DNA of 64,000 nt from Turicibacter sanguinis (GTDB lineage Bacteria; Bacillota_I; Bacilli_A; MOL361; Turicibacteraceae): NCBI RefSeq assembly GCF_013046825.1, contig NZ_CP053187.1:2824001-2888000 (forward strand), written 5' to 3'. Below are positions 29,072 through 40,619 of this stretch, in pieces. The notes below the pieces were generated by a model. It was not told where the DNA came from. It was given only the letters and a program-made list of their open reading frames with translations, and made no database searches. The number at the start of each line of letters is the position of its first letter. The stretch's first letter is position 1. A program made the position numbers and the translations under genes.

Positions 29072-29152
29072 ATGGCATCAAAAAAAGAGACATCAAGTCT
29101 CTATCCTGTTACAATGTTATCGGCTAAAACAATATTGAAAGGATAATTTTTG

Positions 29153-30439
29153 ATGTCTCACTCATATTCTACTAGAAAATTTTTAAATATTAAAGATAAA
29201 AATATCATCTTTCCTGAAGATTATTTTGAAGAAGTTAAATTAAATGGGATCACTAGCTTTGTTTTTAAGGGAATCTTATCTTACCAACCCACTCATTGTG
29301 AACACTGTGGAACTCTTTTTGATTCCAATTTTAAAAAGCATGGGTTTAAAACTTCTCGAATTATCATTCCAAAAGTATCACTCCATGATACCTATTTAGT
29401 TTTAAAGAAACAGCGTTATTATTGTGGGCATTGTCAATCCACCTTTACATTAAAAACATCTATTGTTGAAAAGAACTGTTATATTTCTTACAATACGAAA
29501 CACGCGATTGCTTTAGAAGCTCAAAATAAAATTTCAGAGTGCGATATTGCCCGTCGCCATCAAGTTTCTCATTCAACCGTTAATCGGATCATTCATAGCT
29601 TTTATGAATCTCAAACTTTGAACTTTAATGATCTACCTGAAAATCTTTGTTTTGATGAATTTAAATCGGTAAAATCGGCTGAGGGTCATATGTCTTTTAT
29701 CTTTTGTGATGCAGATACCAAGCAGATTATTGATATCATTGAAGATCGACGCTTAACCTCTCTTCAGACTTATTTCAAGCGATACACAAAAGAAGCTCGT
29801 GCGCGTGTGAAACATATTGTCACTGATATGTACGCCCCTTATATCAGTTTGATTAAGGAGCTTTTTCCTCATGCCAAAATTGTCCTTGATAAGTTTCACC
29901 TCGTTCAACATATCTCCCGTGCACTCAATAAAACACGTATTCGATTAATGAAAAAATTCAAAAAACATGGTCGTAAATTCAAACGTTACTGGCGACTATT
30001 TTTAAAATCACATACCCTACTCGATACCACAACTTATCGATCTGTTTATTGTTTTAAGCAACCGATGCGTGAAATAGATATCTTAAACTTCCTTCTCGAT
30101 TTATCACCCGAATTAAAAGCAACTTATGAGCTTTATCAAGATTTACTATTCGCCATTCAATCGAAAAATGTGAATCGATTTAATCACTTACTTGAAACAG
30201 AACATCCAATGATTTCACCCGAACTTCAAACATCTTTTCAAACCTTTAAAACCTATGCTTCTTATATCTACAATACTCTGACTACTCCCTATACTAATGA
30301 TCCTATTGAAGGAATCAATAATAAAATTAAAGTCATCAAACGTATCGCGTTTGGATATCGCAGCTTCTATCATTTCAAATCAAGAATTCTTATGATTCAA
30401 AATCTAACTAAACCCAAAAGAAAAATCCTAGCAGCATAG
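29153..30439 (+). CDS. ISL3-family transposase
   Basis: The 428-residue protein starts with a zinc-ribbon DNA-binding part (CEHCG near residue 46 and CGHCQSTF near 92) and a helix-turn-helix (ECDIARRHQVSHSTVNRI). The DDE catalytic domain follows, with acidic residues in CFDEFKS, VTDMYAPY and DPIEGINNKIK. The start at 29153 follows AAAGGA by eight to nine nt. An in-frame TTG lies one codon upstream. The protein is intact. A hairpin (AGAGAC/GTCTCT, 29086-29102) lies in the leader and may limit readthrough translation. Confidence 0.95.
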   Translation: MSHSYSTRKFLNIKDKNIIFPEDYFEEVKLNGITSFVFKGILSYQPTHCEHCGTLFDSNFKKHGFKTSRIIIPKVSLHDTYLVLKKQRYYCGHCQSTFTLKTSIVEKNCYISYNTKHAIALEAQNKISECDIARRHQVSHSTVNRIIHSFYESQTLNFNDLPENLCFDEFKSVKSAEGHMSFIFCDADTKQIIDIIEDRRLTSLQTYFKRYTKEARARVKHIVTDMYAPYISLIKELFPHAKIVLDKFHLVQHISRALNKTRIRLMKKFKKHGRKFKRYWRLFLKSHTLLDTTTYRSVYCFKQPMREIDILNFLLDLSPELKATYELYQDLLFAIQSKNVNRFNHLLETEHPMISPELQTSFQTFKTYASYIYNTLTTPYTNDPIEGINNKIKVIKRIAFGYRSFYHFKSRILMIQNLTKPKRKILAA

Positions 30440-33042: not shown

Positions 33043-33777
33043 TTATTTCTCATTTTCAAACTTTTCAATGATTTTTTGATCGGCTTCACTCAATTCGTGA
33101 TGCTTTAATAAATCAGGACGACGAGACCACGTACGATAAAGGGATTGTTCATGACGCCACTTTTCAATCTCTTTATGATTCCCTGACATTAAAACAGGCG
33201 GAACTGTCATTCCTCTAAAATCAACCGGACGGGTATACTGTGGAAACTCTAGTAATCCCATTGAAAATGAATCATTTTCATGAGATTCCTGTTTTCCTAA
33301 CACATCAGGAAGCAGACGAACAATGGCATCTGTCATCACCATCGAAGCAAGTTCACCACCTGTTAACACATAATCACCAAGTGATAATTCATCAGTCACT
33401 AAATGTTCTCGAATTCGTTCATCAAAGCCTTCATAATGACCACAAATAAAAATCAGATGCTCCTCTTTTGATAATTCTTCTGCTTTCGCTTGAGTAAAAG
33501 GCTCTCCCTGAGGACACATCAAAATAATACGAGGATTCGCGCTACTATTTTGACACACTGATTCAACCGCATCAAAAATCGGTTGAGGCGCTAAAAGCAT
33601 TCCCGCTCCACCACCATACGGATAATCATCTACTTTTTTATGTTTGTTTTGTGAAAAATCACGGAAATTCACTGTATTTAGTGTCACAGCTCCACGATCT
33701 TGGGCACGTTTTAAAATGGAACCATTAAAAACTCCTGAAAACATTTCAGGAAATAAAGTTAAGACATCAATCTTCAT
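33043..33777 (-). CDS. trmD: tRNA (guanine37-N1) methyltransferase
   Basis: TrmD makes m1G37, needed to prevent frameshifting. The SPOUT trefoil knot is clear: [12 protein letters not shown] near residue 111 and [20 protein letters not shown] near 136. [10 protein letters not shown] near 54 binds AdoMet. The 244 residues are normal. The start codon overlaps the last base of the rimM stop (TAATG), so the two are coupled. Confidence 0.97.
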
Positions 33778-34283
33778 TATAATAATCCTTCTAATACTTC
33801 AATGATAACTTCTTTGGCTTCAACATCAACCGATTTAACCACATCTTCGATGTATGGAATTAACGCATCTTTTTGACCTTTACGCTTAACCACCCAAACA
33901 TCATTCGCACCTGTTTCTAAAATTTCAGTAATTTCTCCGATTTCTTCACCTGTTGTTGCTTTAACTGTGCATCCAATGATCTCAAAATAATAAAACTCAT
34001 TTTCATCTAAATCATCTAAATTTTCAGCCGATACTAATAAATCACAACCTTTATATTTTTCAACATCATTAATCGAATTTAAATGTTTAAATTTTAATAA
34101 GTCTGCGCCTTTATGTTCACGATGCGTCGCAACTATAACTTCGATGTACTCACCATTAAACTCAATAAACAACTGACTTCCTTTTTTAAAACGTTCCTCT
34201 TTAAAATCACTATTTGAAACAACCTTAACCTCACCTTGTAAGGCATGCGTGTTTACAATTTTACCAACTTGTAAAAATTCCAC
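33777..34283 (-). CDS. rimM: 16S rRNA processing factor RimM
   Basis: RimM aids maturation of the 30S head domain. The N-terminal barrel begins [18 protein letters not shown] and the PRC-barrel domain contains [19 protein letters not shown] and LIPYIEDVV. It starts with GTG at 34283, 8 nt after AGGAGG. Length 168 is typical. The genes usually found just upstream (rpsP and a KH-domain gene) are missing; a tandem repeat occupies the region instead. Confidence 0.95.
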
Positions 34284-34403
34284 AATAAAAACCTCCTATA
34301 AAAAGTGCCAATTAAAATCAAATCGACTTAACTCGCAACCTTTCAACAACATCTATCTTTATTATGGTAATACAAAAAACAATTTTATACAATAAAAAGG
34401 TGG

Positions 34404-34749
34404 AGAAGAACGTTTAACTCCGAACAAAAGTTAACAGACATCTCCGCCTCGCCTTTTGAGGTGTTAGGTGGATGGAACTTTATGGAGGAGTTGTTCTTCG
34501 AAACTAGATTAAATAAAAAGGCGGGGCCCCACACGTTTTTATTCCTCCTTTGGTGGGGTAATAAGAAGAACGTTTAACTCCGAACAAAAGTTAACAGACA
34601 TCTCCACCTCACCTTTTGAGGTGTTAGGTGGATGGAACTTTATGGAGGAGTTGTTCTTCGAAACTAGATTAAATAAAAAGGCGGGGCCCCACACGTTTTT
34701 ATTCCTCCTTTGGTGGGGTAATAAGAAGAACGTTTAACTCCGAACAAAA
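34404..34749. repeat. 160-bp structured tandem repeat, 2.16 copies
   Basis: The unit begins AGAAGAACGTTTAACTCC and repeats with an exact period of 160 bp at 34404, 34564 and 34724 (last copy only 26 bp). The two full copies differ at two bases (34446 G versus 34606 A; 34451 G versus 34611 A). Each unit folds: GAAGAAC...AACTCC pairs with GGAGTTGTTCTTC about 80 nt later, enclosing a C(G/A)CCTC...GAGGTG hairpin. The G/A difference at 34446 swaps a G-U for an A-U pair. A CCCCAC...GTGGGG hairpin follows. On the minus strand each unit also carries GGAGGA and a 49-51 codon GTG frame (34539-34694, 34385-34534). Function is unknown. Confidence 0.9.
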
Positions 34750-34771
34750 AATAGAGATCTATTATTTGAAA

Positions 34772-34805
34772 AAGCCCCATCGCATCAACAAAAGCGAAGG
34801 GGCTT
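34772..34805 (-). terminator. Terminator of the rnf operon
   Basis: AAGCCCC and GGGGCTT with an inner TCGC/GCGA pairing form a long stem, with T runs on both sides. It lies 6 nt beyond the rnfB stop on the minus strand. Confidence 0.85.
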
Positions 34806-34810
34806 TTTTG

Positions 34811-35095
34811 TTATCCTTTATTTTCTTTTAAAAATTCATTAATTTTAGCTTTAGCATCTGCACTACATGGTTTACATGAGTTAACGGTACCTCCATTTTC
34901 AATGATGTCTTCTGCTAAACCAGAACAACCAGGAAATCCACATGAACCACAGTTATATCCCGGTAACATTGCAATTAACTTTTCAATTCGCGGATCAACT
35001 TCAACTTTTAAATAAAGGTTCGCCAACCCAAGCAGTCCGCCAAGTACTAATCCTAAACCTCCAATGACTATAATAGGAACTAAAATCGCACTCAC
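34811..35095 (-). CDS. rnfB: Mini-RnfB: membrane anchor plus one iron-sulfur domain
   Basis: RnfB passes electrons from ferredoxin to the membrane Rnf complex. Only the N-terminal membrane helix (residues 5-27) and the first cluster domain are present, with Cys 49, 52, 57 and 74 in NCGSCGFPGC and NSCKPC. The protein is 94 residues; Rnf complexes of clostridia and proteobacteria have a RnfB of about 190-330 residues with two further [4Fe-4S] motifs. The frame ends normally, followed by a terminator, so this is not an edge effect. Start is GTG at 35095 behind GGGGGGAG, overlapping the preceding small gene by 4 nt. Confidence 0.85.
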   Translation of the reverse strand: MSAILVPIIVIGGLGLVLGGLLGLANLYLKVEVDPRIEKLIAMLPGYNCGSCGFPGCSGLAEDIIENGGTVNSCKPCSADAKAKINEFLKENKG

Positions 35096-35250
35096 TCTTC
35101 TCCCCCCTTATAATGAGAACAAGTATGATTCGAACAACGATGACAAGACGTCTGTTCGTTTATTGTAATTGGAGCTTCGGTTCTTTTATTCATGACGTAT
35201 GTCCACATAAAAATGCTCACCAAGACAACAAATAAAACAATCGGCGCCAT
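35092..35250 (-). CDS. Small cysteine-bearing membrane protein inside the rnf operon
   Basis: This 52-residue gene starts with ATG at 35250, 8 nt after GGAGGG, and ends with TGA at 35092. It overlaps the rnfA stop by one nt and the rnfB start by four. The product has one membrane helix (APIVLFVVLVSIFMWTYVM) followed by a short tail with three cysteines and three histidines or more (CHRCSNHTCSHYKGG). The C-x2-C-x4-C pattern could bind metal or a cluster or form a redox pair. No family is recognised, though the layout recalls small FeoB-associated Cys-rich proteins. Its tight coupling on both sides suggests a role in the Rnf complex. Confidence 0.8.
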   Translation of the reverse strand: MAPIVLFVVLVSIFMWTYVMNKRTEAPITINEQTSCHRCSNHTCSHYKGGEE

Positions 35251-35825
35251 CAAACAATCCCTCCAAATCCCATGAAGATGATTGACATAATCGAGGCTGT
35301 AATTAAAGCAATCGGAACCCCTCTTAACGCTTCTGGAATTGGAGCAAGTTCTAATCGTTCACGAATCACAGAAAATAAATAAATAACTAACGTAAATCCA
35401 AGTGCTGAAAATAAGCTAAACACAATGGTTTCTATTAAGTTATACTGATTATCAATCGATAACACGGCAATTCCAAGAACAGCGCAGTTAGTCGTAATAA
35501 GTGGTAAATAAACTCCCAGTAACTTATAAAGTTTCGGTGAAAACTTCTTAACTACCATCTCAACGAACTGAACTAAAGAAGAGATAACTAAAATAAACGT
35601 GATGGTTCTCATGTACGTCATATCACAAGGCACTAAAATATATTCATAAACAAGCCATGAAACACTTGATGAAACGACCATAACAAACGTGACAGCCAAT
35701 CCCATCCCGATTGCAGACTCTGTCTTTTTAGAAACTCCAATGAAGGGACAGATTCCAAAAAACTGAGATAAAATAACGTTTTGAACCAGTAATGCAGTCA
35801 ATGCAATTGGAACTAAAGTTTCCAT
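35250..35825 (-). CDS. rnfA: Rnf complex subunit RnfA
   Basis: RnfA is one of two homologous six-helix membrane subunits that hold a [2Fe-2S] cluster between them and form the ion path. Residues LLVQNVILSQFFGICPFIGVS near 12-32 and LPLITTNCAVLGIA near 107-120 contain the paired cysteines and are typical. The 191 residues are normal. It starts directly after the rnfE stop (TAGATG). Confidence 0.94.
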   Translation of the reverse strand: METLVPIALTALLVQNVILSQFFGICPFIGVSKKTESAIGMGLAVTFVMVVSSSVSWLVYEYILVPCDMTYMRTITFILVISSLVQFVEMVVKKFSPKLYKLLGVYLPLITTNCAVLGIAVLSIDNQYNLIETIVFSLFSALGFTLVIYLFSVIRERLELAPIPEALRGVPIALITASIMSIIFMGFGGIV

Positions 35826-36446
35826 CTACGCCTTCACCTCCTGTTTCACTCTTTTTTTTGATTGAGAGATCCGATATTGATTCATGATTCCAATAATTAA
35901 TCCAAGTGCCAAAAAAGCACCCGCTGGATAAATAAAGATTGGAATACTAATCGACTCGGGTAAAAATTGAACGCCAAATAAACTTCCTGCACCGATTAAT
36001 TCACGGAAACTTGCCAATACACAAAGTCCAAGCGTAAATCCAAACCCCATTCCAAGTGCATCAAAAATAGAATCAATCACCTTGTTTTTACTTGCAAAGC
36101 TTTCAGCACGTCCGAGAATAATACAATTCACGACAATTAATGGAATAAAAATTCCAAGCCTTGCAGCAAGTGATGGAACATACGCGTTTAAAAGCATCTC
36201 AAGGATTGTCACACCTGTTGAAATAATCACAATAAAAACAGGAATTCGAACTTCATCTGGTACTAATTTTCTAATTGACGACACGACAATATTTGAAAAA
36301 AGTAACACAAAAACAACACTTAACCCCATCCCAAGTGCATTTTGCAAAGATGTCGTGACACCAAGCGAAGGACACATTCCAAGTAATAAAACAAATAACG
36401 GATTCTCAGTGATGAGACCCCGCTTCAAAATTTCCTTCTTCGTCAT
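35826..36446 (-). CDS. rnfE: Rnf complex subunit RnfE
   Basis: This is the second homologous membrane subunit. GLITENPLFVLLLGMCPSLG near residue 10 and FIPLIVVNCIILGRAESFAS near 99 hold the conserved cysteines facing those of RnfA. Six membrane segments fit in 206 residues. It lies 16 nt after rnfG. Confidence 0.94.
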   Translation of the reverse strand: MTKKEILKRGLITENPLFVLLLGMCPSLGVTTSLQNALGMGLSVVFVLLFSNIVVSSIRKLVPDEVRIPVFIVIISTGVTILEMLLNAYVPSLAARLGIFIPLIVVNCIILGRAESFASKNKVIDSIFDALGMGFGFTLGLCVLASFRELIGAGSLFGVQFLPESISIPIFIYPAGAFLALGLIIGIMNQYRISQSKKRVKQEVKA

Positions 36447-36462
36447 CCTCTTCCCCCCAATT

Positions 36463-36996
36463 CTAATGTTTTAAAAAATGTGCATTCGCCTCATCAATCG
36501 CCTTCTTAACCGCTGAACTCGTAATCGTCGCGCCTGATAATGTATCAATACTCATGCCATCCACCGGTTTATTTAATATCTGAGATAAAAACTCATCCTC
36601 TTTCACCCGACTCCCAAATCCAGGCGTCTCACTAAATGTTCCAATATAGCGGAGATTAATCAATTCCTTTGTCTTTAAATCATAGGCTACGAACATTTGA
36701 ATATCGCCCCCATAACCTTTCGTCGCTAATTCATAAATTCGGCCCATGCAATCATTATCTTGATCATAAATATTATAAATCACCTGAATCGCTTTAAACT
36801 CTTCCGATTCCGATGTATCTGACTCTTCAAAACGCGTCATACTCGGAAAAAAATCTAATATAGTGGCCTCTTTTTCCGCTTTTTCACGCTCACTGATAAT
36901 AGGGGCTGTCATCGTATTCACACTCGCAATTAATCCTGCACAAATAATTCCAATAACGGCCAAAAAACAAGCTAAATAGATTGGTTTTTTTACCAC
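36463..36996 (-). CDS. rnfG: Rnf complex subunit RnfG (covalent FMN)
   Basis: RnfG has one N-terminal membrane helix (about residues 6-26) and an external FMN-binding domain. The flavinylation motif SGATITS is near residue 156, where FMN is attached to Thr by ApbE (not in this window). GFGSRVKEDEF precedes it as in the family. Length 177 is slightly short of the usual 180-210. Confidence 0.93.
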   Translation of the reverse strand: MVKKPIYLACFLAVIGIICAGLIASVNTMTAPIISEREKAEKEATILDFFPSMTRFEESDTSESEEFKAIQVIYNIYDQDNDCMGRIYELATKGYGGDIQMFVAYDLKTKELINLRYIGTFSETPGFGSRVKEDEFLSQILNKPVDGMSIDTLSGATITSSAVKKAIDEANAHFLKH

Positions 36997-37012
36997 AACG
37001 TCTCACCTCACT

Positions 37013-38101
37013 TTAAATCATGATTCCAATTAAGACAGCAATACCAATAACAATCAAAAAGCTAACTAACCAAAAACAAATTTCTCCTCGTTTAAGTGGA
37101 AGATTCATTCGTCCCATAAATCCTCGGTCAATGACAGGTTTAAATAAATTCATGATTAAAATAGAGAAAAACACACCTTCTGGGTAATTTCCAAGCAGTC
37201 TGATGATGACCGTTAAGATTCCAAGTGCCATTCCAAAAAACACTTTCCCTTTTCTAGAAACGGGTGAGGTCACTAAGTCAGTTGCCATAAACGTAGCTCC
37301 AAATAAAATGCCTCCACTTAAAAGATGAAACAACGGATACCAAATCCCAGCCACTCCATTCATTGCTCCAACTATCCATGTCATGAAAAAGACGGTTCCT
37401 AAATAAAAGGCAGGAATTCGCCAATCAATAATTCGACGAACCACTAAATAAATCATGGCTATGATAATAGCAAATGAAATACTCTCCCCAATTGCTCCAC
37501 CATAAGTCCCCATTAACAAACCGACTAGTCCACCATATGGAGCCGTTAATTGTTCATACGTCCCAATATATTGATTTTGCGCCAAATGCACCAGAGGAGT
37601 CACCGAGGTAACGGCATCAACTTGTGTTAAAGTTGTCGTTAATAATCCTCCAAATGAAATCGTGACCAAGGCACGACCAACCAGTGCTGGATTAAACGGG
37701 TTATAACCAACGCCCCCAAACACTAACTTTCCAAGCCAAACACTGACACAAGAACCAATCGCAACGACCATTAAAGGAGTTCCAATCGGCAAACAAAGAG
37801 CTAATAAAATAGCGGTAATAAGTGAATACGATTTTACAATTAGCGTTAACCATTCATAAACATCTTTAAATCGACGACCACATGCAAAGAAAATGGTTTC
37901 GGTTAAAATAGCAGATATTATTGAAACGAGTAACATCCATATAGCTTTTAGGGCATAGGCACCTCCAAAGGTATAACCATAAACGCTAATTGCAATTAAA
38001 CTAATCACACCTAAAACGGCACTAAATTCATACATAATCTGTTGTGTACTACTTCGACTATGTAAGTGTGGCGTTGGTGACCATTTTGCGATTTTTGCCA
38101 T
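37013..38101 (-). CDS. rnfD: Rnf complex subunit RnfD
   Basis: RnfD is a polytopic subunit of the NqrB/RnfD family with about nine membrane helices in 362 residues. YNPFNPALVGRALV near 139 and FGATFMATDLVTSPVSRKG near 268 are signatures; the latter region carries covalent FMN in homologues. It lies between rnfC (17 nt) and rnfG (16 nt). Confidence 0.94.
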   Translation of the reverse strand: MAKIAKWSPTPHLHSRSSTQQIMYEFSAVLGVISLIAISVYGYTFGGAYALKAIWMLLVSIISAILTETIFFACGRRFKDVYEWLTLIVKSYSLITAILLALCLPIGTPLMVVAIGSCVSVWLGKLVFGGVGYNPFNPALVGRALVTISFGGLLTTTLTQVDAVTSVTPLVHLAQNQYIGTYEQLTAPYGGLVGLLMGTYGGAIGESISFAIIIAMIYLVVRRIIDWRIPAFYLGTVFFMTWIVGAMNGVAGIWYPLFHLLSGGILFGATFMATDLVTSPVSRKGKVFFGMALGILTVIIRLLGNYPEGVFFSILIMNLFKPVIDRGFMGRMNLPLKRGEICFWLVSFLIVIGIAVLIGIMI

Positions 38102-38118
38102 GTTCTTCTCTTCCCCTC

Positions 38119-39507
38119 TTATTTTAAAATTCGTTTGGCTCGTCGCACAAACTCTGTCACTTCAATATGCGATGGACAAACATACGTACACATCCCGCAT
38201 TCTACGCAAGATTTCGCATTTAACTTAGTGAGACGCTCTTTATCTTTAAGTTTAGCCATATCCTTAATCAAAACAGGTTGTAATCCCGTTGGACAATGAT
38301 CAGTACAACGACCGCAACTCACACACGGTTGTTCATCTTTTTCCATGATGACCTCTTTTTTATAGTTCGGCCATAAAATATCCTTAATTCGGTCAAAGCC
38401 TTTATCGGGCCCCTCTTTTTTCTTCGTTGGTAATACCACAATTCCATTAACCCCACGTGATATGACAAAATCATCACTTCTCATCACGCCACCCATCATC
38501 GGTCCCCCAACAATGATTTTAATTTCATCTGCATCATCAATATACCCTCCGGCTAATTGAATTAACTCTTTAGCCGGCGTTCCAATTCGGACATAGTAAA
38601 GTCCTGGACGTTTAATCCCTTCTCCAGAAACTGTGACTAGTCGGCGAATAAATGGCCGATTATCACGAACAGCAAATGAAGTCGCAATAGCCGTTCCAAC
38701 ATTTGAAACAGTAAATCCAAGTTCTGAAGGTAAGCGATCATACTCTCGACCTGTAATCGTTTTAATCAAGACTTTCTCCCAGCCGAGTGGATAAGCATCT
38801 GGTACCTCGTAAACAGAAATTTGATCTCGAACTTGATACTCATCAATCTTTTGCTCTAAAAAAGCTTTTAATTTCTTTTTCCCTTTCTTAATGGCAATGA
38901 TTCCTTTTTTAACATCTGCTGCTTTCATTAAAAATGAAATTCCATCAAAGAACCGTTCTGGTTGATCAAACATAAAATGATAATCTGTTGTTAAATACGG
39001 TTCACATTCAACACCATTAATTAAAACAGTATGGATTCCTTCTGGATTTAAGTATTTAATATACGTTGAAAATCCGCTACCTCCAAGCCCGACAACCCCA
39101 TTTTTACGGATCATCTCCACAATGTCTTCTCGACTTAAAACACTTGAATCAGCGGGTGGTACACAGCTTGGATCCATTTCATATTTAAAATCATTTTGAA
39201 TTTTAACACACAACACTTGTTTTCCACTTCGATGCCATTTCTTTTCAATCGCAACAACATCTCCACTAATACTTGCATGCATTGGAATGTTAATCCCATC
39301 CGTTCGATGACCCACTTCAGTTCCTACATACACATGATCTCCCACTTCAACAATGGCTTTACAATTTAAACTTGTATGATTAGTCAGTGGAATATAAACA
39401 AAATTTGAATTATTGTATTCCATGACATCCACAGTTAAAGCTAACTCTTTTTTTCCCGGAATATGAGTATAAGGATCCGGTTTTAAAATCCGATCAATCA
39501 CCCTCAT
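38119..39507 (-). CDS. rnfC: Rnf complex subunit RnfC
   Basis: RnfC is the peripheral NADH- and FMN-binding subunit where NAD reduction takes place. GVVGLGGSGFSTYIKY near residue 136 is the glycine-rich FMN/NADH site. Two [4Fe-4S] motifs are near the C-terminus: CVSCGRCTDHCPTG and CVECGMCTYVCPSH. The N-terminal biotinyl-like barrel (HASISGDVVAIEKKW) is present. It is the first gene of the operon, with GGAGGA 7 nt before the ATG. Confidence 0.95.
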   Translation of the reverse strand: MRVIDRILKPDPYTHIPGKKELALTVDVMEYNNSNFVYIPLTNHTSLNCKAIVEVGDHVYVGTEVGHRTDGINIPMHASISGDVVAIEKKWHRSGKQVLCVKIQNDFKYEMDPSCVPPADSSVLSREDIVEMIRKNGVVGLGGSGFSTYIKYLNPEGIHTVLINGVECEPYLTTDYHFMFDQPERFFDGISFLMKAADVKKGIIAIKKGKKKLKAFLEQKIDEYQVRDQISVYEVPDAYPLGWEKVLIKTITGREYDRLPSELGFTVSNVGTAIATSFAVRDNRPFIRRLVTVSGEGIKRPGLYYVRIGTPAKELIQLAGGYIDDADEIKIIVGGPMMGGVMRSDDFVISRGVNGIVVLPTKKKEGPDKGFDRIKDILWPNYKKEVIMEKDEQPCVSCGRCTDHCPTGLQPVLIKDMAKLKDKERLTKLNAKSCVECGMCTYVCPSHIEVTEFVRRAKRILK

Positions 39508-39944: not shown

Positions 39945-40619
39945 ATGAATTTACGTCAATCTAAATCCGTTTTACTCATTTTTTCATACGTATTTGTGAT
40001 GTTTTTACTACCATACGTCACGCTATATGGAATTTCAGCTCTATTTAATATCTCAGATCCAATTGCTTTACAAGTTTATACGAATCTTGTTTCCTATCTA
40101 GTTTTAGTCGCGATTACATTATTATTGTTTGGAAAAGAATTATTAACTGAATTAAAGGAAATCAAATCCACTGGAAAATATCTTCGTGCTGTTTTAGTGG
40201 GGTGGATTATTTTATGGGGTTGCTCCATTTTAGCAAATTTAATCGTGATGGCGATCACGCAATCTGAGGAATCATCAGTCAATCAACAAGTCATTGAACA
40301 ATGTATGAACATCTATCCAGTGTTGATGGGAATCACAACCGTCTTATTTGCCCCATTAGTCGAAGAAGTCGTGTTCCGTTATACGATTATGAAAGGTTTC
40401 TTAAATCGTCCATGGATTGGCATTGCCCTCAGTAGTTTCTTATTTGGAATGATTCACGTTATTTCCGCAGGTGATTTTATTTATGCTATTCCTTATATTG
40501 CCATGGGATTTGCTCTTGGATATGCGTACTATAAAAATCAAAACATCTGGTATTCTATCGGCGTTCATTTATTCCAAAACTTATTTTCAACCATCATCTT
40601 AATTTCATCAATGCAATAA
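39945..40619 (+). CDS. CPBP-family intramembrane metalloprotease
   Basis: This 224-residue polytopic protein has the CPBP (Abi/Rce1-like) signature in order: EEVVFRYTIMKG near residue 142 (EExxxR), FLFGMIHV near 171 (FxxxH), and HLFQN near 213. Such proteases act on bacteriocins, prenylated or membrane peptides, or transcription regulators; the substrate is not evident. GGAGGTG lies before the ATG. It is monocistronic. Confidence 0.9.
   Translation: MNLRQSKSVLLIFSYVFVMFLLPYVTLYGISALFNISDPIALQVYTNLVSYLVLVAITLLLFGKELLTELKEIKSTGKYLRAVLVGWIILWGCSILANLIVMAITQSEESSVNQQVIEQCMNIYPVLMGITTVLFAPLVEEVVFRYTIMKGFLNRPWIGIALSSFLFGMIHVISAGDFIYAIPYIAMGFALGYAYYKNQNIWYSIGVHLFQNLFSTIILISSMQ

Follow-up and report, generated by a model that had tools for sequence, protein, structure and literature searches.

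The tandem array at positions 34404–34749 of the window (the whole 64,000-nucleotide stretch of Turicibacter sanguinis DNA analysed here) is built from a mobile structured repeat that combines unusually strong RNA structure in its individual copies with placement at transcript ends and that may have a function at the RNA level. The repeat family is absent from Rfam and restricted to one small bacterial family. Our preferred reading, to which we assign a probability of about 0.6, is that the ~122-nt unit is a MITE- or BOX-like mobile repeat, confined to this family of bacteria, and that its RNA fold is under selection as a self-contained hairpin at transcript ends, the window array being a local tandem duplication. 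Judging dispersed bacterial repeats by sequence overlooks families that have only their fold in common. Here, strong structural constraint on each copy is found in a mobile repeat that abuts stop codons and stable-RNA genes, and the long-standing question of whether repeats of this kind are junk or RNA parts becomes directly testable. A covariance model would add to Rfam a family that it lacks and would account for numerous intergenic arrays that lack annotation in these genomes.

A composite 160-bp repeat

The array is reported by TRF as a single row of exactly these coordinates, with a period of 160, 2.2 copies, 98% matches and a score (678) far exceeding those of the window's three remaining TRF rows. 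A sequence-only reading of this DNA had described a 160-bp repeat unit: the period stands, but the unit is not a single element, being composed of two distinct dispersed hairpin elements, the ~122-nt unit and a separate hairpin of ~38 nt that is dispersed in its own right. The first unit (34393–34514, plus strand, 122 nt) scores 112.6 bits (E = 8.4e-23) in cmsearch with model R1 and 101.2 bits with R2, a refined covariance model made from 61 units, 58 of them distinct. In the predicted fold it runs from AAAA through P0 (GGU/ACU), a GA/GA loop, P1 (34405–34411 with 34493–34499), a GUUU bulge (34412–34415), P2 (34416–34421 with 34487–34492) and P3 to a variable apical hairpin, and ends in a 3' AGAUU. 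The 13-bp closing stem proposed in the sequence-only reading is present in this fold (GAAGAAC and AACTCC pairing with GGAGTT and GTTCTTC), and its 5' side carries a 4-nt GTTT bulge. The second unit (34558–34674, plus strand; R1 89.9 bits, E = 2.3e-17; R2 81.0 bits) has almost the same core, but the end of the hairpin before it takes the place of the 5' AAAAGG/P0 strand. A third unit, represented by its first 26 nt only (34724–34749, plus strand), is delimited by TRF; in the sequences downstream of other arrays, a truncated last unit is likewise common.

The second hairpin (CCCCAC...GTGGGG, with UUCCUCCUUUG on its 3' side) lies at 34527–34558 on the plus strand, as indicated by the fold and by a paralogue match, and again, by the 160-bp period, at 34687–34718 on the same strand; this pairing too had been predicted from the sequence and recurs in the fold. 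It matches tandem copies at genome positions 2958645–2958717 at 35 of 39 nucleotides, a site where the model finds no unit, and is thus a dispersed element separate from the ~122-nt unit. Hairpins with a similar UUCCUCC side follow units in relatives, in a list collected by pattern, such that the likeness is partly by construction. On the preferred reading, the window array comprises a unit and an adjoining second mobile hairpin that have been duplicated once, recently.

Some further features of these modules can be recorded. In the second hairpin the outer stem is CCC../..GGG, and a bulge on the 3' side, UUCCUCCNNUGG, contains CCUCC (anti-Shine-Dalgarno letters); the hairpin is often found in tandem after 122-nt units (L060, 1836–1935; L066, 1640–2040; L105, 1228–1340). 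Two more modules recur after arrays in the genome to which the window belongs, a CCCT-hairpin-AGGATAA followed by GATGGTCTAAA..TTCGCAAG..TTAGAACCATC and then the start of the next unit; these can be seen at L049 6027–6128 (three repeats), in L043 near 707832, and in L045, L050 and L051.

Folding of the 160-nt unit on the plus strand gives –50.3 kcal/mol (z = –2.7, with one of 200 shuffles equally good), the minus strand being unremarkable (z = –1.1), and folding of the entire array gives z = –5.2. The copies differ at two positions only, G at 34446 against A at 34606 and G at 34451 against A at 34611, and both substitutions convert a G-U to an A-U pair in the MFE fold. The sequence-only reading had recognised one such conversion correctly and assigned the other change to a loop, whereas the latter affects the pair that closes the 5-nt apical loop. 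Since the two copies are near-identical, evidence of covariation has to be drawn from divergent paralogues and from relatives.

A family of covarying structured repeats found in three genera

A BLAST-type search of the same genome (G000) returned eight places, seven of which are only about 70–90% alike. Inspection of their neighbourhoods revealed whole units of 117–125 nt, arranged head to tail, in which the letters differ and the fold is common. Model R1, a covariance model derived from the window repeat and its paralogues, found 53 matches in this genome at E ≤ 1, and R2 identified 50 places at E ≤ 0.001, with tandem runs of up to eight units.

The consensus unit comprises, in order, AAAA, an outer stem P0 (GGCU/AGCU) of only 3–5 bp, a GA/GA internal loop, P1 (seven pairs), a GNUU bulge confined to the 5' side, P2 (six pairs), a small loop of CG/GA type, P3 (UAAAAGU/ACUUUAUA), a variable tip that usually forms a hairpin, and a 3' AGAUU. 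The stems are freely variable, whereas the letters of AAAA, GA/GA, GNUU and AGAUU are mostly 79–100% conserved (the first A of AGAUU at 71%). In copies from rRNA and tRNA operons, the 3' end reads AGACA (or GGACA) in place of AGAUU.

In a first alignment of eleven units, made from sequence alone, 16 of the 24 consensus pairs display compensatory changes. The median identity between arrays is 60%. Across the 58 distinct units, both sides change in 22 of the 24 modelled pairs, and 91.6% of cells pair, compared with at most 43% for slid structures, in an alignment that is mostly model-fitted and to that extent favours structure. The covariation score for these units is 0.607, against 0.191 ± 0.010 for shuffles and no more than 0.104 for slid structures, and none of 500 shuffles reaches the observed values. 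With strong covariation across divergent paralogues and relatives that neither control reproduces, the units have the covariation expected of a structured RNA family. The sense strand folds better than the antisense in 104 of 107 units, although, with the outermost pair disregarded, G-U exceeds A-C only weakly (39 v 31). Among near-identical copies, 125 changed pairs are kept and 105 broken, a kept share moderately above the neutral 38%, in a count whose cells are non-independent and whose reference fold is a single MFE structure; constraint on recent copies may be weak.

Beyond G000, R2 detects 27, 13, 8 and 1 copies in four congeners and a further 14 and 7 in the genomes of two sister genera, with none in one sister genome of 75% completeness. 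The repeat is thus represented in seven of eight genomes of the bacterial family, spanning three genera. In a draw of 395 genomes from the class, scanned with strict filters and few candidates scored per genome (weak relatives may escape such a scan), only the seven family carriers matched and the other 388 gave no match. Pattern scans yielded five stretches from all genome contigs and ten from viral contigs, none convincing to the model (best 24 bits, L136). Neither the window nor five paralogous loci gave a relevant match to the 4227 families of Rfam 15 at gathering or lax thresholds, all scores falling below the cut-offs; the best match in the window, to PyrR, reached 24 bits where the cut-off is 54. 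The class is therefore as unfamiliar as the sequence-only reading had supposed. A literature search covering few subscription papers found no description of such repeats. Homology to 5S rRNA, suspected from the 5S-like length of the matches in relative G003, was rejected, as these adjoin the 5S gene between the 23S, 5S and tRNA genes.

Mobility, gene ends and competing explanations

Comparison of sites with and without the unit shows it to be dispersed, inserted at positions that are empty in relatives or sister operons, and amplified in tandem. In G003, the 5S–tRNA spacer is empty in L101 and L102 (CATAAATAAATGCGGG) and filled in four operons, the best-kept filled copy (L123) being flanked by a TAAA direct repeat, the sole clear candidate target duplication read. 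The 23S–5S spacer is filled in 13 places in G003 and empty in those operons of G000, G001 and G004 that were read; the purB 3' end is empty in G001, G002, G003, G005 and G006, and that of yebC in several relatives. Copies at unrelated loci are mostly 92–97% identical in G005, as are two G000 arrays (at 417528 and 703100; 97%), and the 5' flanks of units are TAA-like. Short, non-coding, present in many copies and missing from empty sites, the unit resembles a MITE in these respects.

The units also have a marked preference for gene ends. Outside rRNA and tRNA clusters, 24 of the 32 non-orthologous arrays have the same orientation as the gene upstream (p = 0.007; with orthologues included, 31 of 39), and 18 of these 24 begin no more than 12 nt from its stop codon, where random placement in the same gap would predict 3.0. 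The stop codon often falls within the unit, as TAA in AATAAAAGG or TGA in GCTGA, and the last codon of purB is missing or changed in comparison with relatives that lack the unit. In G003, units come after 23S at 13 places and after 5S at four, and in G001 and G004 they come after tRNAs. Two or three species carry diverged units at orthologous positions, namely behind purL, ahpC and ricT and between tRNAs, a sign of long-term maintenance. In G005, many units lie in sense 5–100 nt before a gene, the genes being varied; no –10 promoter is claimed at the unit start there (TATGGTATAAT), as the tandem linkers carry identical letters. A riboswitch or leader, expected in the 5' UTRs of one pathway, was rejected, with most units following varied genes and those before genes in G005 preceding varied ones. 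The sequence-only reading had suggested a structured RNA or a regulatory element, and of these the former is borne out, as regards structure, by paralogues and covariation, whilst regulation would be hypothetical; the copies are dispersed over unrelated genes and behave like a mobile repeat. The outcomes that would have told against that reading, a lack of further copies or of covariation, were both contradicted. As judged by sequence inspection, several G000 genes upstream of arrays resemble nucleotide-metabolism genes (purL, purB, dUTPase, nrdD, deoxynucleoside kinase, thymidine kinase and pyrR). In L040 (12004–16324), nrdD-like reading frames are split by two ORFs resembling GIY-YIG endonucleases, which suggests an interrupted, putatively intron-bearing gene.

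According to the preferred reading, the unit would be co-transcribed at gene ends and its fold selected at the RNA level, as argued by the sense orientation, the better sense folds, covariation at ~60% identity and the retention of orthologous positions by diverged units. Such a self-contained hairpin might spare the neighbouring gene and RNA maturation, or might shield or delimit RNA 3' ends, and could be spread by an enzyme acting in trans. A Y1 transposase (PF01797) or a reverse transcriptase was rejected as the mobiliser since neither is present in all carriers: no Y1 match was found in G005 or in G000, the genome richest in copies, and reverse transcriptase is absent from G001 and G003. 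This same absence of Y1 from the copy-richest genome counts against a rather doubtful alternative, that the unit is purely selfish hairpin DNA (a MITE, or of the IS200/605-like single-strand type), with a fold that is relevant solely at the DNA level in transposition, and whose orientation and position result from target choice (after TAA or TAAA) and purifying selection. The empty and filled sites, the TAAA repeat, the TAA-like flanks and the near-identity of G005 copies would all fit selfish DNA, but old, diverged copies that still covary are not expected of dead DNA, and both the prevalence of stronger sense folds and a stop-codon abutment in excess of random choice in the gap speak against it.

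Another explanation, which we regard as possible though unlikely, is that the repeats are a dedicated class of functional RNA (cis-regulatory, processing or protein-binding) deliberately kept at transcript ends, with dispersal as secondary domestication. The conservation of unpaired AAAA, GA/GA, GNUU and AGAUU whilst stems covary freely, the orthologous positions held despite diverged sequence, the units in 23S–5S, 5S–tRNA and tRNA–tRNA spacers, and the tight stop-codon abutment would suit such a class; against it, close relatives differ in presence or absence at the sites compared, near-identical copies sit at unrelated loci, no common target pathway was established, and the second window copy and many terminal units are damaged. 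It is conceivable, if improbable, that mobility and function coincide in a new family-confined structured RNA class, spread to and kept at transcript ends by a dedicated factor recognising the internal loops, so that one module would serve as both mobile element and general RNA 3'-end or spacer-processing element. For clusters of hairpins that follow stop codons, a terminator role has been proposed (PMC8355165), and the units do lie between a stop codon and a terminator. A cluster of terminators or attenuators is nonetheless very improbable, and an intrinsic terminator was rejected: the unit ends in AGAUUNAAUAAAA without a U-run, a separate terminator commonly follows arrays, and units occur within rRNA and tRNA operons that continue with further genes. 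Type III toxin–antitoxin systems have tandem RNA antitoxins that are much shorter than the present units; they were set aside with no toxin gene noticed alongside.

REP elements with RAYT (Y1) transposases are hairpin repeats clustered near gene ends; the present units resemble them in this respect but lack a Y1 transposase in G000 and G005. Similar in kind are the BOX, RUP and SPRITE repeats of Streptococcus pneumoniae, which are non-coding, dispersed, mostly shorter than 200 bp, MITE-like and foldable if transcribed, are modular or tandem (the boxB copy number varies), insert near and into one another and, in the case of SPRITE, are enriched at gene 3' ends (PMC3049150). The likeness (short dispersed, modular or tandem, foldable, MITE-like) is one of kind only, taken from descriptions: the present unit has a longer asymmetric helix, conserved internal loops and massive covariation, is found in rRNA and tRNA operons, and starts abutting stop codons, and no BOX-type terminal inverted repeat was seen in it. 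Bacterial stem-loop sequence families are also dispersed structured repeats, some in rRNA precursors, but were grouped by sequence similarity (PMC2267715), whereas the present copies have a common structure at about 60% identity.

The window locus

The window array is exceptional in being antisense to both of its neighbours, reading away from rimM (33777–34283, minus strand, an ORF found in eight of eight family genomes), which is divergent and starts 109 nt from the unit, and against an rnfB-like gene of the Rnf cluster (34811–35095, minus strand, listed as a 94-aa ORF and named from its sequence) whose 3' end faces the array. The array is absent from the matching locus in family relatives and is found there in this genome only; nor does the rnfB-like gene adjoin rimM in those relatives. 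The idea that the array occupies the slot of rpsP was rejected, as the seven family relatives likewise showed no rpsP-sized gene adjoining rimM, the actual difference being the Rnf cluster. The unit and second hairpin would have arrived in this genome-specific junction and then been duplicated.

Between the array and rnfB (34770–34809), a stem resembling a terminator, AAAAGCCCC..GGGGCTTTT, can be read, which has T-runs in either direction; it is missing from the list of a terminator scan with a loop limit of 8. In the window, the Rnf cluster (34811–39507) separates rimM from a CPBP-type gene (39945–40619), the two being direct neighbours in congeners G002, G003 and G004 and in sister genus G006 (L140, L141, L142 and L145). 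An ISL3-type transposase gene is located at 29150–30439, 4 kb from the array.
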